Shown: positions 1 through 10,166 of the stretch, piece after piece
Layout of the letters: each line of letters starts with the position of its first letter
Position numbering within the stretch: position 1 is the stretch's first letter
Assembly: GCA_951800855.1 (NCBI GenBank)
Contig: CATOLC010000024.1
Location: forward strand, 1-10,166
Direction of reading: 5' to 3'
DNA: 10,166 nt
Origin: an uncultured Ruminococcus sp.
GTDB taxonomy: Bacteria; Bacillota; Clostridia; Oscillospirales; Acutalibacteraceae
Program-made: the position numbers and the translations under genes
The notes under the pieces: generated by a model
Seen by the model: the letters and a program-made list of their open reading frames with translations, nothing else
Told to the model about the DNA's origin: nothing
Database searches by the model: none

Positions 1-1101
1 GCCTTGCCGGCTTATGATTCGAGAAGTTTCCCGATTCATAATTTAAGGCTGAAAGATACTTCAAATACTAGTCAATCAATCCAAACAAATGCAGAATTTA
101 CGAAAATAAGGGCAATAAATGTGCCGACGAGCAGCGAATATTACCTTATGGTGCAAGGTAGCTCAAGTGGCACAAACTGGGCTTATTCTACAAAAATTAC
201 AGACGGCAAGGCAATGCTCCAAACTTCGGATCTTTCAAATGTTGCGAGCATTTCGAGCTTCGAAAATACTAAAGTTTGGCTCGAAAAAGCAAGCACGGAA
301 ACCGACGGCCAGCTCCTTTACGCCTCCGCGCTAACTACGATTAGCTCTTCAACCGACAAATTCGATGACAAAGCCCCTTGTGTTAAATCAGTCACTTTTA
401 CGCACCAAAAAGACGGCAAGCAGGAAACTTACACCCCTGGAAATTGGGCAACAAATCCCCCCATTACCGTGACCTATAACGTAGAAGACCTCGCCGGCAC
501 AGGTGTAACCCCGTCGGGCATTGACGCCGACAGTTACCAGATTTCCTTAGACGGCGGCACGAGTTATTCCAAAGCCACCGATAGCATTGATGGTGTCGAG
601 GTTCTAAGTCGAACTGAGAGCGAGCTCCAGCTTAAAGTCACTAAAGAAGGGCAGTTTAGGCTAAAAATCCGGGTGCAGGATAAAGAAGGCAACTGCTTTA
701 CCGAGTCGGAAATTAATAGCCTGAACATTGATATGACGCCCCCAGCACCCGTAAAAATCACCTCTCCGGAAGGGGACACGTGGCTAAAGACTAAAACCCC
801 GACTATCTCCGGCACGGGAGAAAAAGGCTGTACCGTTCATATAAAAGAAGGCGACACGATTTTGGGAAGCCCCGAAGTCAGCGAGGACGGCACTTGGCAG
901 TTGACTTTGGACCCGCTCGCTGAGTGGATACACAGGCTTACAATAACTCAGACAGACCCCGCAGGACAGACCTCAAATCCAGCGAAAATCAACTTTATAA
1001 TAAGCACAGAAGGCTTTGCCGGTAAAATCGTTATCACAGACGACGCCCGAGTTTACTGGATCCGACCGGGCGATAAGAGTGTATTTAAATTCCTGCATTA
1101 A
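1..1101 (+). CDS. Ig-like domain surface/secreted protein, C-terminal part (5' end outside window)
   Basis: The frame is open from the first base, so the true start lies upstream; the TTG at position 4 has no ribosome binding site and is not a credible start. About 366 residues are visible. The best-defined unit (about residues 247-335) begins TPPAPVKITSPEG and contains PTISGTGEKGCTV, DGTWQLTLDPL and TDPAGQTSNPA. This is the pattern of bacterial Ig-like domains found in tandem in large adhesins. A looser Ig-like unit precedes it (about 125-245, with TPPITVTYN-like, LDGGTSY and VQDKEGN segments). The first 120 residues are beta-rich but not assigned. The C-terminus has no LPXTG motif, membrane segment or SLH domain, so the anchoring mode is unknown. 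Ser, Thr, Asp and Gly are abundant, as in extracellular proteins. GC content is clearly higher than in neighbouring genes, near 60% over parts of 480-780. Adhesion is inferred from domain type only. Confidence 0.75.
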   Translation, partial: ALPAYDSRSFPIHNLRLKDTSNTSQSIQTNAEFTKIRAINVPTSSEYYLMVQGSSSGTNWAYSTKITDGKAMLQTSDLSNVASISSFENTKVWLEKASTETDGQLLYASALTTISSSTDKFDDKAPCVKSVTFTHQKDGKQETYTPGNWATNPPITVTYNVEDLAGTGVTPSGIDADSYQISLDGGTSYSKATDSIDGVEVLSRTESELQLKVTKEGQFRLKIRVQDKEGNCFTESEINSLNIDMTPPAPVKITSPEGDTWLKTKTPTISGTGEKGCTVHIKEGDTILGSPEVSEDGTWQLTLDPLAEWIHRLTITQTDPAGQTSNPAKINFIISTEGFAGKIVITDDARVYWIRPGDKSVFKFLH

Positions 1102-1144
1102 CTTATATTTTATCGTATGTAAAAATTACTATGCTCTAAAAATT

Positions 1145-1177
1145 CTTCCTGCGTAATTTTATGCGTAGGAAGTTTTT
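1145..1177 (+). terminator. Rho-independent terminator of the Ig-like protein gene
   Basis: An 11-bp stem (1145-1155 with 1162-1172, two G-U pairs) and a six-base loop ATTTTA are followed directly by TTTTTGTT. It lies 43 bases after the stop codon of the Ig-like gene and separates it from the nrdR operon. Confidence 0.88.
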
Positions 1178-1220
1178 GTTGGCTATACGGGAGTGCAAAA
1201 TAGATAGGAAATGGGTCAAA

Positions 1221-1239
1221 TTAGTCACGAGGTGATTAG
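1221..1239. repeat. Short imperfect inverted repeat upstream of nrdR
   Basis: TTAGTCAC (1221-1228) and GTGATTAG (1232-1239) can pair over eight positions, two of them G-T, around GAG. It sits about 55 bases upstream of the nrdR -35 box. It could be a weak operator or a remnant hairpin; it does not look like the NrdR box of class Ia-III ribonucleotide reductase promoters. Nothing else is evident between the terminator and the promoter. Confidence 0.25.
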
Positions 1240-1292
1240 GTTTTACTCTTTACCTTTCACTATACTTTCTTTGCTGCTCTATATACGAAATA

Positions 1293-1321
1293 TTTACATT
1301 GTTTATTTTATTTGATAAAAT
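1293..1321 (+). promoter_or_regulatory. Sigma-A-type promoter of nrdR-glnN
   Basis: TTTACA (1293-1298), a 17-base spacer and TAAAAT (1316-1321), with an extended -10 TG (TGA before TAAAAT). The expected transcription start is near 1328. That leaves a 5' leader of roughly 30 bases before the TTG at 1360 and rules out the upstream TTG at 1312, which lies inside the promoter. Confidence 0.7.
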
Positions 1322-1349
1322 TAATTATTAAATTTATAGAAAAACAGGC

Positions 1350-1354
1350 AGGTG
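1350..1354 (+). promoter_or_regulatory. Ribosome binding site fixing the nrdR TTG start
   Basis: AGGTG ends five bases before the TTG at 1360. This placement makes the protein begin MRCPYC, the usual NrdR N-terminus, although there is no ATG. Confidence 0.75.
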
Positions 1355-1359
1355 ATAAT

Positions 1360-1821
1360 TTGAGGTGCCCATATTGTAACTCAGAAGACAGCAGAGTCCT
1401 TGAATCTAGAGCAGCAGAAGAGGGAAAAAGCGTTAGAAGACGCAGAGAATGTATAAAATGTTTAAGACGTTTTACCACATTTGAATATGTTGAAATGGTA
1501 CCGCTTTTAGTTATAAAAAGAGATGGATCGCGTGAAATTTTTTCTAGAAAAAAACTTTTAGAAGGAATACTCAAAGCATGTGAAAAACGACCGGTACCTA
1601 TAGAAGAGATAGAAAAATTAGTAAATAAAATAGAATTATATTTTCAAAATTCCTCAGAAAAAGAAATTCCCTCTGGATTTATAGGAGAGAAAGTGATGGA
1701 TGAGCTTAAGTATTTGGATGAGGTTGCCTACATAAGATTTGCATCAATTTATAGAGAATTTAAAGACATAAACTCTTTTATGGAAGAAGCGAAAAAATTT
1801 TTAGGTGAAATAAAAAATTAG
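1360..1821 (+). CDS. nrdR: Transcriptional repressor NrdR
   Basis: This is a 153-residue protein of the usual NrdR length. NrdR is a nucleotide-sensing repressor of ribonucleotide reductase genes; it binds NrdR boxes in a form set by the ATP/dATP state. The N-terminal zinc ribbon is complete: Cys3 and Cys6 (CPYC), and Cys31 and Cys34 (CIKC), with the basic RRRREC segment and RRFTTFE between ribbon and cone. The ATP-cone follows at about residues 48-138 (PLLVIKRDGSREIFSRKKL near its start, VAYIRFASIYREF near its end). The start is TTG, chosen from the ribosome binding site, the promoter position and the family N-terminus. glnN follows after 8 bases, so the two are probably co-transcribed. No ribonucleotide reductase gene is in the window, so its targets lie elsewhere. 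Confidence 0.96.
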   Translation: MRCPYCNSEDSRVLESRAAEEGKSVRRRRECIKCLRRFTTFEYVEMVPLLVIKRDGSREIFSRKKLLEGILKACEKRPVPIEEIEKLVNKIELYFQNSSEKEIPSGFIGEKVMDELKYLDEVAYIRFASIYREFKDINSFMEEAKKFLGEIKN

Positions 1822-1829
1822 ATGCGGGG

Positions 1830-3944
1830 ATGGTTGAATTGAATAGAAAAAATATAAAAGACATTACAAAAATTTTTGGGGAAATGGTGTTTGATGACAA
1901 TGTAATGCAAGAAAGACTCCCTAAAGAAGTCTATGCAAATTTTAAAGACGCAGTTGACACTTGTAGTGAGCTAAGCAGTGATGTTGCGGAGTCTATCGCC
2001 ATGGCAATGAAAGACTGGGCAATTGAACATGGAGCAACCCATTTTACCCACTGGTTCCAGCCTATGACAGGTGTTACCGCCGAAAAACATGATAGTTTTA
2101 TAAGTTTTGACAGTAGCGGTAGAGCAATTATGGGCTTTTCTGGAAAAGACCTTATTAAAGGTGAACCTGATGCATCAAGTTTTCCGTCAGGAGGTCTTCG
2201 AGCAACCTTTGAAGCACGAGGATATACTGCATGGGACCCCACATCATATGCTTTTGTAAAAGACGGCACTTTGTGTATCCCCACGGTCTTTTGTTCATAT
2301 GGGGGAGAAACTCTGGACAAAAAAACTCCTCTTCTTCGTTCTCTTAGAGAGCTTAATAAGCAAGCACTCCGAATACTCAAACTGTTCGGAATAGACGATG
2401 CAAAAAGAGTTTTTGCAAGTGTAGGAGTGGAACAAGAATACTTCCTTTTGGATAGGAAAATGGTGCAAAATAGAAAAGATTTGCTTAATTGTGGCCGCAC
2501 CCTTTTTGGAGCAAAACCGATAAAAGGACAGGATTTGGGCGACCATTATTTCGGATGTTTAAAGCCAAAAATTTCAGAATTTATGAAAGATTTGGATGAA
2601 GAACTTTGGCGTTTAGGAGTCCCAGCAAAAACAGAGCATAATGAAGTTGCTCCGGCACAGCATGAGTTAGCTCAAATACACACTCATGCAAACACAGCTA
2701 CAGACCAAAATCAGATTACTATGGAAGTTTTAAAAAATGTTGCAGAAAGATATGATATGGTATGTTTGCTGCATGAAAAACCATTTGAAGGAATAAATGG
2801 AAGCGGTAAGCACAATAATTGGTCTTTGCAGACAGACACTGGTGTAAATCTTTTTGAACCTGGAAACTCTCCGGAGGAAAATGCTCAGTTTTTACTTTTT
2901 TTATGTGCATTTATAAGAGGTGTGGACAAATACCCTGAACTGTTGAGAATTTCGGTCGCAAGTGCCGGAAATGACTGTAGACTAGGAGCTCAAGAGGCCC
3001 CACCCGCTATAATTTCTGTATTTGTAGGGGAAGAACTTATGGAAATTTTAGAGGCTATAGAAAACGGCATAAGATATGATCGCCACGAAAGTTATATTTT
3101 TGAAACGGGAATTGATATATTGCCTAAATTCCCCAAAGACACCACTGATAGAAACAGAACTTCCCCGCTTGCTTTTACTGGAAATAAATTTGAATTCAGG
3201 ATGCCGGGTTCGAGTGAATCTGTATCCGGTGCAAATATGATGATAAACACTATTATGGCTGATGAATTAGAGTATTTTGCAAATAAGCTTGAAAATTGTA
3301 ATGATTTTCAAGGAGAACTTCGTAAATTGCTTGCGGAAACCATAAAAAATCATAAAAAAATAATTTTTAACGGCAATAATTACTCTAAAAAATGGAAGGA
3401 AGAAGCAGAAAAAAGAGGGTTGCCAAACCTAATAACAATGGCAGATGCCATTCCTCATTACTTAGACAGGAAAAATATTGACCTATTTGAGCGACGTAGA
3501 ATTTTTTCTGAAAAAGAGCTGCGCTCAAGATGTGAAATACAGATGGAAAATTACTTTAAAATCTTAAAAATTGAGGCTAAAACAATGCTCGAGATGGCTA
3601 CAAGAGAAATTATTCCAGCTATCACGAAGTATATATATCATTTGTCCACTTGTATAAACGAATATAGAAAAGCTAGACCTAATCAAGAAAAAAGTGTAAT
3701 GGAAAAAATGCTGGAAAAGCTTGCGGGTATTCTTGAGGAAACAGACATTGCTACAACTGAACTGAAAGAAATACTAACAAATATACCTCCAAAAAAGCAA
3801 GGAAAAGAGATAGGGCAGTATTGCAAAAATAAAATCATACCCGGGATGAATAAACTCAGGGGAATCGTCGATATTGCTCAGCTAAATATCGCCGAGGAGT
3901 TCTGGCCATTTCCGGATAATTCTAAGCTTCTTTTAAGTGTGTAA
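1830..3944 (+). CDS. glnN: Class III glutamine synthetase
   Basis: This 704-residue enzyme should make glutamine from glutamate, ammonia and ATP in the cytoplasm. Its length and motifs are those of class III (GlnN), which is much longer than the roughly 450-residue class I enzyme and is common in Bacteroidota, cyanobacteria and Clostridia. Visible motifs are FTHWFQPMTG (72-81), GVEQEYFLLD (199-208), EHNEVAPAQHE (269-279), NGSGKHNNWS (323-332), RLGAQEAPPAIISVF (384-398) and DRNRTSPLAFTGNKFEFR (440-457). The catalytic core with metal- and ATP-binding residues is therefore intact. The remaining 240 residues form the helical, class-specific C-terminal part. The ATG follows nrdR by 8 bases and is preceded only by a poor GGGG-type site, suggesting translation coupled to nrdR. 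No GlnR site, T-box or glutamine riboswitch was seen upstream, and no clear terminator follows. Confidence 0.97.
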   Translation: MVELNRKNIKDITKIFGEMVFDDNVMQERLPKEVYANFKDAVDTCSELSSDVAESIAMAMKDWAIEHGATHFTHWFQPMTGVTAEKHDSFISFDSSGRAIMGFSGKDLIKGEPDASSFPSGGLRATFEARGYTAWDPTSYAFVKDGTLCIPTVFCSYGGETLDKKTPLLRSLRELNKQALRILKLFGIDDAKRVFASVGVEQEYFLLDRKMVQNRKDLLNCGRTLFGAKPIKGQDLGDHYFGCLKPKISEFMKDLDEELWRLGVPAKTEHNEVAPAQHELAQIHTHANTATDQNQITMEVLKNVAERYDMVCLLHEKPFEGINGSGKHNNWSLQTDTGVNLFEPGNSPEENAQFLLFLCAFIRGVDKYPELLRISVASAGNDCRLGAQEAPPAIISVFVGEELMEILEAIENGIRYDRHESYIFETGIDILPKFPKDTTDRNRTSPLAFTGNKFEFRMPGSSESVSGANMMINTIMADELEYFANKLENCNDFQGELRKLLAETIKNHKKIIFNGNNYSKKWKEEAEKRGLPNLITMADAIPHYLDRKNIDLFERRRIFSEKELRSRCEIQMENYFKILKIEAKTMLEMATREIIPAITKYIYHLSTCINEYRKARPNQEKSVMEKMLEKLAGILEETDIATTELKEILTNIPPKKQGKEIGQYCKNKIIPGMNKLRGIVDIAQLNIAEEFWPFPDNSKLLLSV

Positions 3945-4111
3945 ATACTAATTTTAAGTTCATTTATGTTTTTCTATACTATTTATTTTTGTGTGCATAA
4001 TGTGTAAGCATTATAGCCAATTGCGTAAAAATATGTAGACTGTTTATCGAAGGCTAGAGATAATCTATTTATTTGTTTACACTTTGTCTAAAAAGAGGGA
4101 TTTTAATTTTT

Positions 4112-5086
4112 ATGGAGATTAAAAAAGAAAAAACAAGTTTTTTTACCAATAAATTTATTGTAATGGCAACTGCAATTTTATGTACTGCATTATGGGGAAA
4201 TATGATTCCAGCAATAAAAGTCGGATGTGACCTTTTAGGCGTGAATCCGGAAGACACTGCTTCAGAAATTCTTTTTGCGGGATTTTGTTTTACTCTTTCA
4301 GGACTTTATACTATTTTTGTTTCCTGTTTAAGGGAAAATAGATTGGTTCTTCCTCAGAAAAAATTACTATTGGATACATTTGTGTTAGGCTTTGTCCAAA
4401 CTACTTTACAGTATGTTTTTTTATATATGGGTATTCCAAATACAAGCGGGTTTAATTCGTGTATAATTTCATCAAGTGGGACACTTCTTATAGTAATTCT
4501 ATCCCATTTTATATACAAAGATGATAAAATTGATTTTAGAAAAAGTATAGGATGTTTTCTGGGACTTTTAGGTGTTCTCGTGCTGAACTTAGGCTCATTT
4601 TTTGAAATTTCCCCAATATTTACATTTAAAGGCGAAGGTATGATATTTTTATCTACTTTGACTTTTGTTTTCACCACTCCTTTATGCAAAAAACTTTCAC
4701 AGCATGAAAAACCAGAGGTTTTTACAGGATATAGCTTTTTAATCGGAGGTATAATTTTACTTTTTTTAGGTTTTTTCCAAGGAGGTATGATTGTCTTAAC
4801 ACTAAAAGGCTTATTAATGCTTCTGTACTTATCAGCTGCTGCGGCTATATCTGGGGCACTTTGGAATTACCTTTTGGAGTACAATAAAGTATCTGAGGTT
4901 ACAATATATAATTTCCTTGTTCCAATATTTGGAACGATTTCAGCAGGCATAATGCTAAACGAAAATATATTTGAAATAACAAACTTAATCGCGTTAATTT
5001 TGATATGTTCAGGTATTTACTTTGTTAGTGAAAAAGTTGATTTGTTTAAACTAAAACGTAAAAATAAGGCAGAAAAAACTATTTGA
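4112..5086 (+). CDS. EamA/DMT-superfamily transporter
   Basis: This is a 324-residue, strongly hydrophobic protein with about ten predicted membrane helices in two halves (about residues 15-150 and 165-310), the duplicated layout of EamA drug/metabolite transporters. Segments such as ATAILCTALWGNMIPAIK in helix 1 and the closing VSEVTIYNFLVPIFGTISAG with LIALILICSGIYFV are typical of the family; the second half usually carries a Pro near the end of its penultimate helices, as here. The tail is basic (KLKRKNK), fitting a cytosolic C-terminus. The substrate cannot be told. The ATG at 4112 is chosen because AGAGGGA lies 11 bases upstream; a TTG at 4073 lacks such a site. The preceding 167 bases after glnN show no convincing terminator or promoter, so read-through from glnN is possible. 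ogg follows after 10 bases. Confidence 0.88.
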   Translation: MEIKKEKTSFFTNKFIVMATAILCTALWGNMIPAIKVGCDLLGVNPEDTASEILFAGFCFTLSGLYTIFVSCLRENRLVLPQKKLLLDTFVLGFVQTTLQYVFLYMGIPNTSGFNSCIISSSGTLLIVILSHFIYKDDKIDFRKSIGCFLGLLGVLVLNLGSFFEISPIFTFKGEGMIFLSTLTFVFTTPLCKKLSQHEKPEVFTGYSFLIGGIILLFLGFFQGGMIVLTLKGLLMLLYLSAAAAISGALWNYLLEYNKVSEVTIYNFLVPIFGTISAGIMLNENIFEITNLIALILICSGIYFVSEKVDLFKLKRKNKAEKTI

Positions 5087-5088
5087 GG
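5085..5088 (+). promoter_or_regulatory. Ribosome binding site choosing the ogg start
   Basis: GAGG overlaps the stop codon of the transporter gene. It lies 8 bases before the ATG at 5097 but only 2 bases before the ATG at 5091, so 5097 is the better start. The overlap implies coupled translation of the two genes. Confidence 0.6.
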
Positions 5089-5096
5089 ATATGCTA

Positions 5097-5909
5097 ATGA
5101 ATAAAATTAAAATTCAAGATTATGAGAAATTCAGTTTAGAGGAAACGTTCGAATGTGGTCAGTGTTTCCGATGGAACAAGGAAAATTCAGGGTACCGAGG
5201 TATAGTTTCAGATAGTGATGTTTTTGTATATTATGAAGGAAATAATCTTATTATAGAAGGTGCAAAAGAAAATCAATATGAATTCTGGATAAAATACTTC
5301 GATTTAGATAGAGATTATTCTAAAATAAGGCAAACGTTAACAGAAATTGACCCCACTTTAAAAAAGGCAGTTGAATCTTGCTCCGGGATAAGAATTTTAA
5401 GACAAGAACCTTGGGAAGCCCTTTGCTCTTTTATCATTTCGCAAAATAATAATATCCCAAGAATAAAAGGAATAATCCATAGACTTTGTGAAAATTTTGG
5501 AGAAAAAATAAGCGAGAAAGCATTTTCATTTCCTTCAGCCGAAGTTATTTCTTCTCTCACTGAAGATGATTTTGCAGCAATACGAAGCGGGTTCCGTGCT
5601 AAGTATATTATTGATGCAGCAAAAAAAGTTTCAAATGGGGAAATTAACTTGGAACACTTAAAAACTATACCTATTTTTAAAGCGAGAGAAGAACTTAAAA
5701 AGATTAAGGGGGTAGGCCCTAAGGTAGCTGAATGCACGATTCTTTATGGATTTCATAGGCTAGAAGCGTTTCCCGTTGATGTTTGGATGAAACGCATAAT
5801 GGAGACTTATTTCCCGGGGAAAACTGCGGATATATTCGGAAAGTATGCCGGAATTGCACAGCAATATTTATTTCACTACATAAGGACAAATGGTACTGCA
5901 AAAAAATGA
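5097..5909 (+). CDS. ogg: 8-oxoguanine DNA glycosylase/AP lyase (OGG1 type)
   Basis: A 270-residue base-excision-repair enzyme that removes 8-oxoguanine from DNA and can cut the resulting abasic site. The N-terminal OGG domain holds the FxLExTFxCGQCFRW-like segment (about 12-26). The helix-hairpin-helix/GPD part has LKKIKGVGPKVAEC with catalytic Lys209 and PVDVWMKR with Asp228; these correspond to human OGG1 Lys249 and Asp268. The segment SQNNNIPRIKG (115-125) matches human SSNNNIARITG, and SGFRAKY (164-170) matches the human GYRARY loop. It is close in type to the Clostridium acetobutylicum enzyme and shorter than human OGG1 (345 residues). The gene shares an operon with the transporter upstream and ends just before a hairpin serving mainly the opposite strand. 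The family call is firm; the base-opposite preference is inference. Confidence 0.95.
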   Translation: MNKIKIQDYEKFSLEETFECGQCFRWNKENSGYRGIVSDSDVFVYYEGNNLIIEGAKENQYEFWIKYFDLDRDYSKIRQTLTEIDPTLKKAVESCSGIRILRQEPWEALCSFIISQNNNIPRIKGIIHRLCENFGEKISEKAFSFPSAEVISSLTEDDFAAIRSGFRAKYIIDAAKKVSNGEINLEHLKTIPIFKAREELKKIKGVGPKVAECTILYGFHRLEAFPVDVWMKRIMETYFPGKTADIFGKYAGIAQQYLFHYIRTNGTAKK

Positions 5910-5913
5910 AACT

Positions 5914-5948
5914 AAAAAACTATCTCTACGAACATACGCTCGTAGAGA
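5914..5948 (-). terminator. Rho-independent terminator between convergent genes
   Basis: TCTCTACGA (5923-5931) pairs perfectly with TCGTAGAGA (5940-5948) around an eight-base loop. Read on the minus strand, the stem is followed after three bases by six T (5914-5919). It therefore ends the minus-strand 177-residue gene, whose stop is 21 bases upstream of the stem. On the plus strand the hairpin lies just after ogg but is followed by an AT mix with no T-run, so it would be weak in that direction. Confidence 0.8.
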
Positions 5949-5969
5949 ATTCTATAATATAATTATAAA

Positions 5970-6503
5970 TTATTTAAAGTCAAGTTTAATATCTTTACCT
6001 GCTGTTTTTGCTTCAGAAACTTTTAATACCCAGCCTTTTATCCCCGTTTTACCTTTTGCCAATTTTTTAAAAATTTCTTCTAATATAGTTCTTGTCGTAT
6101 TATCCTTAGTTAACTGGTCATATAATCCATTATCTTTGTAAGGATAGTCTATTAATTTTTGATTAGTCGCACATTTATAGTGGTGGTCATATGCATATGA
6201 AAAGTTCAACCTATCCCAGCCACAAAATTTTTGGGATGTCGGGTCAGTATCCTGTGAATAATAAGTTTGTAGCGCGTTTAGTGGCTGATTATTCAGCTTT
6301 ATATGTTTTAAGATTTTTTTTAAGATTTTCTTACTATATTCGTTGAGATTCCCCCCCCCGGGAGCATAAGTTATAGATGCTTCCAGTAGAATTATTGTAT
6401 AAACCTTATCTACGTTGGGGAGACCAGCATTTTTTCCAAGTTCCAATGGATCAATTTTTATTTCAGCTTCTATATAATTCTCGTTCTGGATTTTACCAGC
6501 CAT
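5970..6503 (-). CDS. Hypothetical protein, 177 residues, with poly-G tract
   Basis: I do not recognise the family. The start at 6503 (MAGKIQNE) is chosen because AAAGGAG lies 9 bases upstream; an in-frame ATG at 6512 abuts that site and is too close. There is no signal peptide or membrane segment, so the protein is probably cytoplasmic. It is rich in Lys, Asn and Tyr, with two Cys (in KFCGWD and YKCATN), an aromatic central part (NFSYAYDHHYK), an amphipathic Lys-Ile-Leu run (YSKKILKKILKHIK) and a C-terminal GIKGWVLKV. Pro48 and Gly49-51 are encoded by CCC and nine consecutive G. It has its own strong promoter and terminator, so it is a single-gene unit, divergent from the radical SAM gene. 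Gene reality is supported by this full set of expression signals; function is unknown. Confidence 0.8.
   Translation of the reverse strand: MAGKIQNENYIEAEIKIDPLELGKNAGLPNVDKVYTIILLEASITYAPGGGNLNEYSKKILKKILKHIKLNNQPLNALQTYYSQDTDPTSQKFCGWDRLNFSYAYDHHYKCATNQKLIDYPYKDNGLYDQLTKDNTTRTILEEIFKKLAKGKTGIKGWVLKVSEAKTAGKDIKLDFK
6351..6359 (-). repeat. Nine-G homopolymer in the coding strand
   Basis: Nine C on the plus strand (nine G in the coding strand) encode Gly49-51 of the 177-residue protein and are preceded by CCC. Gain of one G gives a TAG six codons past the tract (GAA TCT CAA CGA ATA TAG). Loss of one G gives a TAA ten codons past the last full GGG triplet. Either slip therefore switches the protein off. 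Confidence 0.9.
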
Positions 6504-6512
6504 AATATACAT

Positions 6513-6519
6513 CTCCTTT
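6513..6519 (-). promoter_or_regulatory. Ribosome binding site of the 177-residue gene
   Basis: AAAGGAG on the minus strand lies directly against one ATG (6512) and 9 bases from the next in-frame ATG (6503), favouring 6503 as start. Confidence 0.8.
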
Positions 6520-6537
6520 AATATATTTTACAAGAAT

Positions 6538-6566
6538 AATATATCACATTTGCATAAATATATCAA
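6538..6566 (-). promoter_or_regulatory. Strong sigma-A-type promoter of the 177-residue gene
   Basis: On the minus strand: TTGATA (6566-6561), a 17-base spacer and TATATT (6543-6538), with an extended -10 TGA before the hexamer. The predicted transcription start is near 6531, giving a leader of about 28 bases. Confidence 0.8.
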
Positions 6567-6752
6567 CTTAAATTTTAAAAAAGAATATATTTTGCTATTT
6601 TATTTTTGAAAATGAGAACTATAGTTATTCTATATAACCATAAGTTTAAAAATATCTCCCTGCTTAATCTATCTCACTTTTATTAATCTGGAATCCCTTT
6701 CTTAGTTCAACAAAAAGTAATAATTGGTTTTTACTTAAAATACAAAAAAGTA

Positions 6753-6780
6753 TTGACATTAACATATTTTATGATAAAAT
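6753..6780 (+). promoter_or_regulatory. Sigma-A-type promoter of the radical SAM gene
   Basis: TTGACA (6753-6758), a 16-base spacer and TAAAAT (6775-6780), with extended -10 TGA. The -35 is a perfect consensus. Predicted transcription starts near 6787, about 45 bases before the ATG. Confidence 0.75.
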
Positions 6781-6832
6781 ATATTGTATAATATTAAATA
6801 TGTATAAATTTATCTGGATAGAGGTGGCAATT

Positions 6833-8179
6833 ATGAAATACATTCCACAAACATGCGTTTGGGAGGTAACTATGGGTTGTAATATGCGGTGCGGACACTG
6901 TGGCTCGTCATGTAAAACTGCTTTACCTGGAGAACTTAACACATATGAAGCTTTGGACCTTGCGGATATGATAGCTGATTTAGGGCTTTCATGGGTAACC
7001 TTATCGGGTGGAGAACCTTTAACTCGTAAAGATATACCCCAAATTGTAAAACGTCTTAATGATAATGGAGTAAAGGCCAATATAATAACAAACGGCTGGG
7101 AATTAACAGAAGATATGGCAAATAGTCTTAAAAATGCCGGCGTATCAACTGTAGCTATAAGCCTTGACGGAACAAAAGAGATTCATGATAAAATAAGAAG
7201 ACAAGGGGCTTTTGACAGAGCTAAAAAAGCATTTAAAATTTTAAATAAATTAGGTGTTTACACAGCTAGCATAACAACTATTACTAAAACTAATATAGGA
7301 ATTCTTGAAGATTTAAAACAAGATTTGGTTAAAATGGGAGTAAAGCTTTGGCAAGTTCAGTTAGGACTTCCTATGGGTAATTTTGTCAGTCACCCGGACT
7401 GGATGCTTGAACCTTGCCAAATTAAAGATATAATAGATTTTTGCTATGATGCAGCGTTAGGAGGTGAAATAGAGATACAACCGGCTGATTGCATAGGGTA
7501 TTATGACAAAAAGGCAGAATATGTAAATTCTCTAAGGGGAATCTCAGCTTGGAATGGGTGTAATGCAGGAATCAGAAGCTTTGGAATTCTTCATAATGGA
7601 GATATTTTAGGTTGTACTTCAATTAGAAACAGAAGTTTTATAGAAGGAAATATTAGGGAAAAAAGTTTAAGGGAAATTTGGGAAGACCCTAACTCATTTT
7701 CTTGGAGAAGAGGCTTTTCAAAATGTGACCTTTCCGGGGATTGTGCCTTATGCCGATATGGCAATAAATGTCTTGGTGGCTGTCCAAATACTCGGCTAAC
7801 CACACAAAACTCAATCTATTCGGAGAATTTATTTTGCTCATTCAATTATAAAGTTAAACAATTCAAAACACAGCTTTTAAAGTTCAAAGAGCCCGAATAT
7901 TTAAAGTCTAAAGCCTGCAAATGCTTAAAAAATGGAAGTTATCAGGAAGCCATGCTGCTTTTAACGAGGAGTTTGGAACTGAAAGACGAAGATGAATCTT
8001 TGATACTAAAAAATATTTCAGAATTTCTATGTGAAAATTTAAATTATTTAGAGCTTTTAAGTTATGGTACAGAAAACATCCAAAAAATTTTAGAAAAGTA
8101 TGATTTAAAAGACATATCCGATGTGCTTTTTCAGAAAAATGAAAAAATAAAGTTAAAAGTAGCTAAGAAAAATTTTTAA
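6833..8179 (+). CDS. Radical SAM/SPASM peptide maturase
   Basis: A 448-residue enzyme. The radical SAM core carries CNMRCGHC with Cys16, Cys20 and Cys23 (CX3CX2C) for the SAM-binding 4Fe-4S cluster, and SGGEP (58-62). The SPASM domain is complete: Cys243, GX4C at Gly256/Cys261, the CX2CX5CX3C set Cys304, Cys307, Cys313 and Cys317, and Cys335, ligands for auxiliary clusters. SPASM enzymes commonly install crosslinks or other radical modifications on peptides, and the gene 65 bases downstream encodes a plausible peptide substrate. The core starts almost at residue 1, so no N-terminal RiPP recognition domain is fused. Residues about 350-448 are a helical tail; KSKACKCLKNGSYQEAMLLLTRSLELKDED resembles a TPR-type unit. 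The start at 6833 is supported by GAGGTGG six bases upstream. The modification catalysed cannot be told from sequence; a carbohydrate or enzyme substrate is less likely given the neighbour. Confidence 0.92.
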   Translation: MKYIPQTCVWEVTMGCNMRCGHCGSSCKTALPGELNTYEALDLADMIADLGLSWVTLSGGEPLTRKDIPQIVKRLNDNGVKANIITNGWELTEDMANSLKNAGVSTVAISLDGTKEIHDKIRRQGAFDRAKKAFKILNKLGVYTASITTITKTNIGILEDLKQDLVKMGVKLWQVQLGLPMGNFVSHPDWMLEPCQIKDIIDFCYDAALGGEIEIQPADCIGYYDKKAEYVNSLRGISAWNGCNAGIRSFGILHNGDILGCTSIRNRSFIEGNIREKSLREIWEDPNSFSWRRGFSKCDLSGDCALCRYGNKCLGGCPNTRLTTQNSIYSENLFCSFNYKVKQFKTQLLKFKEPEYLKSKACKCLKNGSYQEAMLLLTRSLELKDEDESLILKNISEFLCENLNYLELLSYGTENIQKILEKYDLKDISDVLFQKNEKIKLKVAKKNF

Positions 8180-8228
8180 TAAGAATGAATTAATATTTTT
8201 GAATAAATAGAATAAAATTTAAATTATA

Positions 8229-8235
8229 AAAGGAG
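8229..8235 (+). promoter_or_regulatory. Strong ribosome binding site of the precursor peptide gene
   Basis: AAAGGAG abuts the ATG at 8236 and lies 9 bases before the in-frame ATG at 8245, so 8245 is taken as start. The site is stronger than that of the radical SAM gene, as expected if more peptide than enzyme is needed. Confidence 0.8.
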
Positions 8236-8244
8236 ATGTTTAAT

Positions 8245-8592
8245 ATGAATAATAAAAACCACTTTGAAGAAATAAACGACAATGCTTTAGGTGAAGGCGT
8301 TGCAGGCGGACGTAGCTGTGAAGGGGAGCATAAAGCTGTGCCACTGTATGGTATTGATAGACCAATTATGCCTAAATATGGAGTCCCAGAGAACAAGGAT
8401 GATAAAAAAGATAACAATGGACAAGCACAGAAACTCCCTGACAATACTTTAGGCGGAGTTGGCGGAGGAATTGGTGCAATAGAAGAAAAACCGGTGGAAT
8501 GTTTTGAAAAAGAGGGCTCTGATACGGAATGTAAAGGTGGTAAGATCCCTCCGATGATGCTGAAATACGGTGTTCCACCAAAAAAGCATTAA
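8245..8592 (+). CDS. Putative RiPP precursor peptide with duplicated KYGVP modules
   Basis: A 115-residue, hydrophilic peptide next to a radical SAM/SPASM maturase. It consists of two similar modules. Module 1: NDNALGEGVAGG (11-22), a Cys-containing stretch (Cys25), then PLYGIDRPIMPKYGVP (33-48). Module 2: PDNTLGGVGGG (65-75), a stretch with Cys86 and Cys96, then PPMMLKYGVPP (102-112). The DNxLG...GG segments resemble the double-glycine leader ends of many bacteriocins and RiPPs, which would put leader-like sequence before each core. A Lys/Asp/Asn-rich linker (50-60) joins the modules. There is no signal peptide or membrane segment. It could instead be a structural or ligand peptide unrelated to the enzyme, but the pairing, repeat layout and strong ribosome binding site favour a modified peptide. 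The product structure and role (antimicrobial, signal, redox or metal binding) are unknown. Confidence 0.75.
   Translation: MNNKNHFEEINDNALGEGVAGGRSCEGEHKAVPLYGIDRPIMPKYGVPENKDDKKDNNGQAQKLPDNTLGGVGGGIGAIEEKPVECFEKEGSDTECKGGKIPPMMLKYGVPPKKH
8275..8580 (+). repeat. Two diverged tandem modules inside the precursor gene
   Basis: Codons 11-48 (8275-8388) and 65-112 (8437-8580) encode the same order of elements: DNxLG with a GG end, a Cys-bearing variable stretch, and a Pro/Met-rich segment ending KYGVP. Codon choice differs between copies (AAATATGGAGTCCCA against AAATACGGTGTTCCA), so the protein motif has been kept while the DNA diverged. Confidence 0.75.
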
Positions 8593-8627
8593 ATAAAAAA
8601 TGACAAAGATTTCCTAAATATTATTCA

Positions 8628-8681
8628 AGAGATGACATTATTTGTTTGAATTTTTCACTTTACAAAATGTCTCTCTTTTTT
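8628..8681 (+). terminator. Probable terminator of the radical SAM-precursor operon
   Basis: AGAGA-T-GACATT (8628-8639) pairs with AATGTCTCTCT (8666-8676), an 11-bp stem with one bulged T and a long loop of 26 bases, followed by five T (8677-8681). It lies 36 bases after the precursor stop. The long loop lowers confidence. Confidence 0.55.
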
Positions 8682-8717
8682 AATTTATTTTGTTGCTAGG
8701 TATCCTTATTTTCAAGA

Positions 8718-8742
8718 TTTAGGATTACTAAAATATCCTAAA
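8718..8742 (-). terminator. Possible weak terminator overlapping the addA stop
   Basis: TTTAGGAT (8718-8725) and ATCCTAAA (8735-8742) form an 8-bp stem around a nine-base loop. The stem overlaps the addA stop codon (8738-8740). On the minus strand it is not followed by a clean T-run, so termination is uncertain. Confidence 0.3.
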
Positions 8743-10166
8743 CTTTTATCTCTTCCCCTATGAAAAGAGAATAAATAAGTAGCTCCTTAACCCTCTCTTC
8801 TTCACAGATTTCAAATGCATATTTATATATATTTAGCTGTTTTGCATATCTATCTCTTAAAATATTTAAATTTTGTACTCTATCGGTTTTATAATCGACA
8901 ATAACAAAACCGTCCTCTTCTTCAAAAACGCAGTCTATTGCTCCCTGAATTATAATTTTATCATCTTCCGAAGCATTCTGAGTATCCATTTCGCCTCCAT
9001 GCACCCCTACTGTGAATCTGTATTCCCTTAAAAGCTTGTTGCTCCTCATGATTCTTTGGCCAAGATTTCCTTTTAAAAATTTAAAAACACTCCTCTTGTC
9101 TATAGCTTTAACTTGAGTATCAGTTAAAAATTTTCCCTTTTGAAGATATTTTAAATGAACATCAAAATCTTTAAGTGCATCTGAATAGTTAGCAAAATGC
9201 AAAAACTCATGAAGTGCTGTTCCTTTTTCAGTAGGGGTTATAGATTTTTCTGCTATAAATGCTGGCCTGGAAACTGCAATATAGTCCTTCCAAACATCTT
9301 CGTGTGCTAATTTAGAGGCAGAAATCTTAGCCGGAGATTTAGTAATCCCTTCATGTAAATATTTAAAATTAAACCTTTTTAATATTTCGGCTGGAAGGAG
9401 TGTATTCTCCGGTTTCTCTTCGTCTTTTTCAAGGCTATTATCCTTATTTTCGGTCTCTTTTAAGGTGTTAGTTATATTAATTTCAAATGCATCTGCGTTC
9501 CTAAGTTTTATATCCGGGTTTTTTAAGTTCTCATATTTATAAATTTTATGGTTTTCATCGCTTAAAAGTGCACAGTTTAAAATCCATATGCCAATATTTG
9601 CAGAATTTCTTACCGCATAAGAATGAATTTTATCACCTTTAAAAATTGAGACTAAACTATTCATCACACTTTTAGTAATATCTTTAACAGAAACTAAAAA
9701 AAATAATTTTTCTTTTGCTCTTGTCATTGCAACATACAAAATCCTTAACTCTTCCGACATATTTTCTCTTTCAATCGATAAATTCACTCCATTTCTTATA
9801 AAATTAGGATATTTTATACTCCCGCTTTCGTCTTTAAGCTTAATCCCTATTCCCAATCTTTCATGGAGCAGCACCTCACCACTCTCTTTATTGAATCCGC
9901 CTGAACATCTCGCAATTATGCAAATAGGAAATTCTAGCCCCTTGGAACGATGGATACTCATAATTTTAACTACATCTGAAGATTCCGAAATTGTACATGC
10001 TGAAGAAAGATTAGCTTCTTTTTCCTTTAGCTTATCTAAAAATTCTATGAATCCAGAAAGTCCCCTATACGATGTCCCGTCATATTTTTTTGCATATTCG
10101 GCAAAAAGCCTGAGGTTTGCAAGGCGAGTTTCTCCATTTGTCATAGAAAGGACAACAGAACTATAA
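8738..10166 (-). CDS. addA: ATP-dependent helicase/nuclease subunit A, C-terminal part
   Basis: About 475 residues of the usual roughly 1200 are visible, and the frame is open to the right edge, so the ATG at 10144 is internal. AddA is the UvrD-type helicase and nuclease subunit of AddAB, the Gram-positive counterpart of RecBCD, which resects double-strand breaks and is regulated by Chi. Visible in order (counted from 10144): GETRLANLRLF near the edge, helicase motif V VVKIMSIHRSKGLEFP (58-73), motif VI EELRILYVAMTRAKEKL (131-147), a charged linker (about 225-250), and the C-terminal RecB-family nuclease with GTALHEF (His312), GAIDCVF (Asp404) and VIVDYKTD (Asp417, Lys419) followed by RYAKQLNIYKYA. 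The catalytic set is complete, so the gene looks functional. addB usually lies upstream, here beyond the window. It is convergent with the peptide locus. Confidence 0.95.
   Translation of the reverse strand, partial: YSSVVLSMTNGETRLANLRLFAEYAKKYDGTSYRGLSGFIEFLDKLKEKEANLSSACTISESSDVVKIMSIHRSKGLEFPICIIARCSGGFNKESGEVLLHERLGIGIKLKDESGSIKYPNFIRNGVNLSIERENMSEELRILYVAMTRAKEKLFFLVSVKDITKSVMNSLVSIFKGDKIHSYAVRNSANIGIWILNCALLSDENHKIYKYENLKNPDIKLRNADAFEINITNTLKETENKDNSLEKDEEKPENTLLPAEILKRFNFKYLHEGITKSPAKISASKLAHEDVWKDYIAVSRPAFIAEKSITPTEKGTALHEFLHFANYSDALKDFDVHLKYLQKGKFLTDTQVKAIDKRSVFKFLKGNLGQRIMRSNKLLREYRFTVGVHGGEMDTQNASEDDKIIIQGAIDCVFEEEDGFVIVDYKTDRVQNLNILRDRYAKQLNIYKYAFEICEEERVKELLIYSLFIGEEIKV

Follow-up and report, generated by a model that had tools for sequence, protein, structure and literature searches.

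In a 10,166-nucleotide stretch of DNA from an uncultured Ruminococcus sp. (GenBank assembly GCA_951800855.1, contig CATOLC010000024.1, positions 1 to 10,166; the whole stretch is called the window), a gene for a radical S-adenosylmethionine (SAM) enzyme with a SPASM domain is followed by a gene for a small peptide with a duplicated GG-type leader. The pair is a real locus for a ribosomally synthesized and post-translationally modified peptide (RiPP), and probably a spliceotide system of a divergent type in which no PlpY was detected. Splicing at three sites of the peptide (LYG, KYG, and KYG) is the most likely reaction and is proposed here with fairly good confidence. The chemistry, though little studied, and its wide bacterial spread are already published, and the locus is an interesting variant, not a new kind; the architecture of the clade to which the enzyme belongs may or may not already be covered by Scott et al. 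2022. An earlier note, written from the letters of the window, had proposed a RiPP maturase with its precursor, and the comparison with relatives strongly supported this part.

The enzyme and its two-module peptide

The enzyme exceeded the Pfam cut-offs for Radical_SAM (91.2 bits) and SPASM (32.6 bits). Its CX3CX2C motif and the seven SPASM cysteines (C243, C261, C304, C307, C313, C317, and C335) were invariant in an alignment with 14 relatives, in agreement with the complete enzyme described in the earlier note. Residues 1 to 337 were predicted to fold like SPASM maturases, PqqE and SuiB among them, with residues 309 to 337 modeled at low confidence (predicted local distance difference test, pLDDT, < 50). 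The motif, the cysteine pattern, and the fold place the protein among the SPASM radical SAM RiPP maturases. This fold is common to enzymes with different reactions and does not discriminate between chemistries; structure searches returned the SPASM fold only, with no spliceotide enzyme among the best 50 matches listed of each search. The C-terminal helical domain reached pLDDT values of 76 to 94 in 10-residue blocks over residues 351 to 440 and 56 for residues 441 to 448. TPR Pfam domains were listed for many of the 120 enzyme relatives shown.

The peptide was found as the earlier note had described it, with 115 residues and a duplicated GG leader. The duplication is real, since none of 2000 shuffles reached the alignment score of 54 between residues 1 to 58 and 59 to 115 (highest shuffle, 53). 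The first half carries the leader ending ALGEGVAGG followed by LYG and KYG, and the second half a leader-like TLGGVGGG followed by a single KYG, retaining one of the two Tyr-Gly sites. The contexts VPLYGIDRP, MPKYGVP, and MLKYGVP match the Xaa-Tyr-Gly pattern, and sequence inspection found good ribosome-binding sites for both genes. In a genus relative (G001), the enzyme is followed by three separate GG-leader peptides, which makes the window peptide look like a fusion of two genes of this kind; in locus L007, one such peptide follows the enzyme. A search with the peptide among about 5.8 billion proteins returned the window peptide itself as sole match (3 candidates). When the peptide was compared with precursor families, as the earlier note had suggested, it had no NCBIfam family and a single sub-threshold Pfam match, and neither collection gave it the Nif11 or nitrile-hydratase leader of spliceotide precursors. 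The coordinates of the features are listed in Table 1.

Table 1. Features of the window and example precursors from related loci
Feature	Position	Strand	Basis
Promoter-like TTGACA-16-TAAAAT	6753-6780	+	11/12 consensus matches
Radical SAM/SPASM enzyme, 448 aa, proposed PlpX-like splicease	6833-8179	+	Sequence, Pfam, NCBIfam, alignment
Radical SAM CX3CX2C motif (C16, C20, C23)	6878-6901	+	Sequence; invariant in window enzyme and 14 relatives
WQVQLGLPMGN motif, common to Tyr-Gly-associated SPASM enzymes	7349-7381	+	Alignment, motif comparison
SPASM domain, seven cysteines C243 to C335	7559-7837	+	Pfam, alignment
All-helical C-terminal domain, residues about 354-448	7892-8176	+	AlphaFold model
Ribosome-binding site AAGGAG of the peptide gene, start codon at 8245	8230-8235	+	Sequence
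Two-module precursor peptide, 115 aa	8245-8592	+	Open reading frame, internal alignment, peptide alignment
Leader 1, residues 1-22, ending ALGEGVAGG	8245-8310	+	Aligned with ELGE(I/L/V)(A/S)GG of L006 and L007 peptides
Site 1, Leu-Tyr-Gly, residues 34-36	8344-8352	+	Sequence
Site 2, Lys-Tyr-Gly, residues 44-46	8374-8382	+	Sequence; Y45 and P48 invariant in five-peptide alignment
Leader-like segment 2, residues 59-75	8419-8469	+	Internal alignment
Site 3, Lys-Tyr-Gly, residues 107-109	8563-8571	+	Sequence, internal alignment
Chagasin-type precursors of relatives	L018:5152-5985, L009:4994-5941, L044:5167-5940, L050:4673-5920		Profile search

Tyr-Gly proteins beside related enzymes

When species genomes were scanned with an alignment of the enzyme, 107 relatives were obtained, and the best 80 loci were analyzed. 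In 72 of them, a protein with Tyr-(Gly/Ala)..Pro repeats or a leader peptide was encoded on the strand of the enzyme at a distance of up to 3 kb; these counts are descriptive, without a formal test, as many loci are closely related and the neighbor criterion (a same-strand open reading frame [ORF] within 3 kb with at least two Y(G/A)..P units, or with a GG leader followed by one) was set after the data had been seen. The reversed motif was found in 8/80 loci, and ORFs more than 3 kb away qualified in 1/74. An earlier and cruder test (at least two YG, with a density of 2 per 100 residues, or GG followed by YG, within 1.5 kb), which gave 57/80 near and 22/75 far, was replaced because long proteins, Y-A motifs, and peptides lying about 2.6 kb away escaped it. 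Such a position, about 2.6 kb downstream of the enzyme and not adjacent to it, was observed for the Tyr-Gly leader peptides of L060, L061, L067, L070, and L074, which nearest-gene searches would miss.

Individual loci need qualification. The match in L063 is doubtful, L020 was counted via two overlapping ORFs, one of them across a masked stretch, and L021, whose contig starts 34 bases before the enzyme, was counted among the loci with no qualifying protein. L069 failed the test, yet two GG peptides with AYGGP were seen there by eye. Greedy ORF choice in an early locus scan had dropped real small ORFs, for example, that of L007.

From the side of the peptide, its profile matched only G000 and G001 among 60 relative genomes, both with a close enzyme. 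These two genomes had supplied four of the five profile rows, and the informative part is the absence from the other 58. In the scanning of these genomes, two hits at 31 and 30% identity (G025 and G027) were also listed. The co-occurrence across genomes that the earlier note had thought worth seeking was thus found. Enzymes regularly lacking such a peptide, which it had named as contrary evidence, were not the rule, given the 72/80 loci above, although a plasmid-borne relative from Agathobacter rectalis (L088) had none, and a KYGVP peptide without a radical SAM gene was not encountered in this search.

These data strongly support, at the level of sequence, that the two genes belong together as maturase and precursor. 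That they are adjacent by chance, the peptide not being a substrate, is very improbable; the peptide's lack of any other database match or of a Pfam match above cut-off would fit such an arrangement, as would the Agathobacter enzyme, but the contrast between near and distant ORFs and the sharing of the same two genomes by peptide and enzyme argue against it.

In metagenome-assembled genomes labeled Fibrobacter (L012 to L014, L016, L017, and L019), the enzyme and precursor were much like those of Lachnospiraceae, which may reflect mislabeling, contamination, or transfer. Among viral contigs, 58 stretches matched a pattern and none encoded a relative, giving no sign of phage carriage there.

Proposed splicing and the alternative reactions

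Over the window peptide and the precursors of the 72 loci, a total of 429 sites had Gly (365) or Ala (64) after Tyr. The preceding residue X was Lys at 239 of 350 sites in precursors with a chagasin-like inhibitor domain, described below, and mostly Leu (26), Lys (20), or Ala (10) at the 79 sites of the other precursors, the window peptide included. Variants across relatives comprise KYG, LYG, MYG, FYG, AYG, KYA, and GYA. The conserved unit is therefore X-Tyr-(Gly/Ala) with variable X, and not the P-x-M-x-KYGVP core of the earlier note. That core had been left without a characterized match, which is now provided by the Xaa-Tyr-Gly tyramine-splicing site of PlpXY. In L046, L048, L050, and L053, an xYAAP tail follows the inhibitor domain in place of xYG repeats, suggesting that Ala can stand for Gly after Tyr.

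The earlier note had favored a crosslink, in which Tyr would be joined by a radical C-C or C-heteroatom bond to Lys or Met at a fixed spacing, once per module, with a loss of 2 Da. The SPASM fold would accommodate such a reaction but does not separate maturases with different reactions. Splicing was preferred since X differs between members of the clade and no constant partner residue was seen: besides Lys, the residues L, M, F, A, P, E, and G are found before Tyr in clade precursors, no Lys or Met partner was seen to be conserved across relatives, and K30, Y45, and P48 were the only residues outside the leader that were invariant in an alignment of five peptides. A crosslink is accordingly considered improbable. 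The crosslinking maturases of mycofactocin, PQQ, and WgK were also compared with the enzyme, which stayed below their NCBIfam cut-offs (126.8/265, 87.6/381, and 114.3/650 bits, respectively). For sactipeptides and ranthipeptides, the conserved Cys donors in the core were lacking, as the window peptide contains Cys and the three G001 precursors none.

The best NCBIfam models for the enzyme were TIGR04103 (rSAM_nif11_3, 207.1 bits) and TIGR03913 (GDL-motif maturase, 197.7 bits), which were also the top two models for all four clade relatives scanned, and the examples of both families that were fetched accompany Tyr-Gly peptides. TIGR04103 is presumably the model behind IPR026482, to which a review assigns PlpX. 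Three motifs, WQxQxxxxMGN, GY(Y/F), and WxGCxAG, were present in 24, 25, and 24 of 25 clade enzymes (the window enzyme and 24 of the 80 loci), a comparison that is partly circular since the locus search had used Q(L/I)GLPMGN and T(C/A)VWE(V/I)TM. For plasmid proteins, the comparison is independent, and all three motifs occurred in four enzymes (from Nostoc, Aureibacter, Azospirillum, and Agathobacter) and in none of seven other SPASM or radical SAM proteins. Among the related loci, L082 lacked two of the three. The enzyme tree (36 rows, with 24 of the 80 loci chosen) joined the clade, the TIGR04103/TIGR03913 trio, and a TIGR04133 protein in an open fork (94/92), with the comparators on very long branches. 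The tree leaves the kinship unsettled, and reliance was therefore placed on motifs and model scores.

In Pleurocapsa sp. PCC 7319, the spliceotides of PlpX/PlpY have natural sites described as MYG and LYG (PMC10533398 and PMC11002830). As far as these accounts go, a SPASM radical enzyme adjoins a leader peptide with Xaa-Tyr-Gly sites in both systems, and LYG is common to both. The window differs in its short GG leader in place of a Nif11 or nitrile-hydratase leader, in Lys at two of the three sites, in the two leader-core modules within one protein, and in an enzyme that has a helical C-terminal domain, lies below the TIGR04103 cut-off, and has no detected PlpY. Splice tags in PMC10533398 (GGPIRPLYGLPI and GYG forms) resemble the window sites; this likeness is weak and was not counted as support, because the part of that study dealing with FtsZ lists LYG forms as unmodified and some GYG forms as modified.

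A parallel to plp is found on a plasmid of Nostoc sp. C057 (L087), where an enzyme scoring 853 against the TIGR04103 cut-off of 725 adjoins a Nif11 precursor ending GGRGSIALYGLPPELF and a 71-residue ORF, much like the plp cluster as outlined in a review. It shares with the window WQxQxxxxMGN, GYY, WxGCxAG, and an adjacent GG-ending precursor with one LYG followed by LPP, and differs in its enzyme, about 32% identical, in its Nif11 leader, and in the 71-residue ORF directly 3' of the enzyme. The L082 precursor had a sub-threshold NHase_alpha match (24.7 versus 27.2 bits), and those of L051, L075, L078, and L080 resembled it by eye only. In systems of the GDL-motif type, from Azospirillum (L090, the record name being GDL-motif maturase) and Aureibacter (L089), the enzymes have the same motifs, and their family is the second-best model of the window enzyme. 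The L090 enzyme adjoins DUF1843 peptides with MLYGG, KPYGV, and PMYMA, and in the peptide trios of the two loci (L089:3168-3881 and L090:3046-3761), five of six peptides have a Y-G or Y-A site. The site there lies near the N terminus and no GG leader is present, in contrast to the window peptide; the model cut-off was missed by the window enzyme and by that of L089 (534.9 versus 591.75 bits). These DUF1843 peptides may be splicing substrates, too.

Several points weigh against splicing. The window enzyme reached neither the TIGR04103 equivalog cut-off of 725 bits nor the 591.75 bits of TIGR03913, and its identity to the Nostoc protein is low. With one tblastn query, the 71-residue Nostoc ORF taken as PlpY-like, which has no NCBIfam match itself, a PlpY-like gene was detected neither in the window nor at the 80 loci. 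The Y-G of the sites is replaced by Y-A or Y-N in some relatives. The neighbor criterion was retrospective, and no qualifying protein was found by it in L055, L056, L066, L079, L081, and L083. Outside the 80-locus set, the Agathobacter plasmid enzyme (L088:3986-5140), with 52% identity and the enzyme motifs retained, has no fitting Y(G/A)..P ORF within 3 kb. With regard to export, a C39 peptidase gene was not found in the window's own genome (77% complete), and such genes are common (8/14 control genomes).

The divergence from any characterized enzyme and the Y-A and Y-N variants would also suit another modification of Tyr or X (epimerization, decarboxylation or side-chain loss, hydroxylation, or backbone cleavage), with X-Tyr-Gly as a recognition motif and not a splice site. 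This is held to be unlikely, as the common motifs and the ranking of the best models point to two Tyr-Gly-linked SPASM families. For splicing, the enzyme would bind the precursor via the GG-type leader, and tyramine would be excised at the X-Tyr-Gly sites (-135.08 Da per site), leaving ketoamides, whose reactive ketones resemble groups present in protease inhibitors. Either the clade does without PlpY, the helical C-terminal domain being a possible stand-in on the basis of the model, or the partner is too divergent or encoded elsewhere.

More tentatively, and with less than even confidence, a large splicease clade of Clostridia, Bacteroidota, and Desulfobacterota may be independent of PlpY, the substrate being held by the helical C-terminal domain of the enzymes themselves, and may arm short secreted GG-leader peptides, as in the window, and whole chagasin-fold inhibitor proteins (up to about 16 sites, mostly with Lys before the ketone) with ketoamide warheads. 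Such a clade with two kinds of product would supply gut and sediment bacteria with protease inhibitors that are encoded in the genome and armed with multiple warheads after translation. If PlpY is dispensable in it and Lys is accepted as X, it would also offer simpler tools for splicing, as well as Lys-directed inhibitors. A review describes RiPPs containing beta-amino acids as extremely rare (PMC10373908), and the ketoamides left by spliceases are described as serving protein labeling (PMC10533398).

Inhibitor domains, export, and neighboring genes

In 44 of the 73 precursors (that of the window and those of 72 loci), a chagasin-like domain precedes the Tyr-(Gly/Ala) tail (profile search, E 1e-5). 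These proteins, about 180 to 415 residues long and encoded near the radical SAM enzyme, carry up to about 16 X-Tyr-(Gly/Ala) units, as in the poly KYGYPC or poly xYAAP tails of L018 (Kineothrix alysoides) and L050 (Desulfoluna). They share same-clade enzymes and the conserved unit with the window, and differ by a folded inhibitor domain and by the number of sites, compared to a GG leader and three sites in the window. Pfam PF09394 (chagasin family of peptidase inhibitors) was above cut-off in 3 of 10 precursors scanned, and a profile of seven inhibitor-like domains matched solved chains of a cysteine-peptidase inhibitor, amoebiasin, and chagasin. The Lachnospiraceae-type domain had no PDB sequence match alone and was tied to chagasin via profile comparison only (99.4% probability). 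In the literature searched, nothing was found on chagasin paired with radical SAM enzymes.

The inhibitor domains fit the reported role of spliceotides, as tyramine-type splicing is described as broadly spread in bacteria and the ketoamides left by spliceases as inhibiting proteases (PMC11117315 and PMC10373908, citing Scott et al. 2022), and they suggest a natural function that can be tested directly. The window peptide has no inhibitor domain, and its function is carried over by analogy. A C39-type GG-cutting transporter would strip off the leader and the linker, and one or two small peptides with ketoamides would be exported. These would most likely inhibit serine or cysteine proteases with a preference for Lys or Leu on the N-terminal side of the cleaved bond; a ketoamide at Lys would match enzymes that cleave after this residue. 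Export of this kind is plausible, with C39 peptidase genes in five of six genomes with GG-type peptides, the exception being that of the window.

Tyr-Gly repeats were also fused to S-layer homology domains in L031 (Pfam match) and L034 (by eye) and to a dockerin domain in L038, which suggests placement of the modified tail at the cell wall or cellulosome.

Enzyme and peptide genes are probably cotranscribed, because both lie on the plus strand with a 65-base gap. Of the transcription signals in the earlier note, the single consensus promoter is present as a sequence, and such sites were no commoner than chance in the region (15 versus 12.0 in shuffles, standard deviation 3.7). The probable terminator was not recovered after the peptide gene, the sole terminator-like site in 6400 to 8900 being at 6414. 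No peptide exporter or leader peptidase was apparent among the ordinary neighbors in the window (1 to 5909 and 8738 to 10165), which encode an Ig-like domain protein, an NrdR-like regulator, a type III glutamine synthetase, an EamA transporter, an OGG-type glycosylase, and, on the minus strand, the end of a UvrD-like helicase-nuclease. A 180-residue minus-strand ORF (5970 to 6512) with no Pfam or NCBIfam match separates the enzyme gene from that of the DNA glycosylase.
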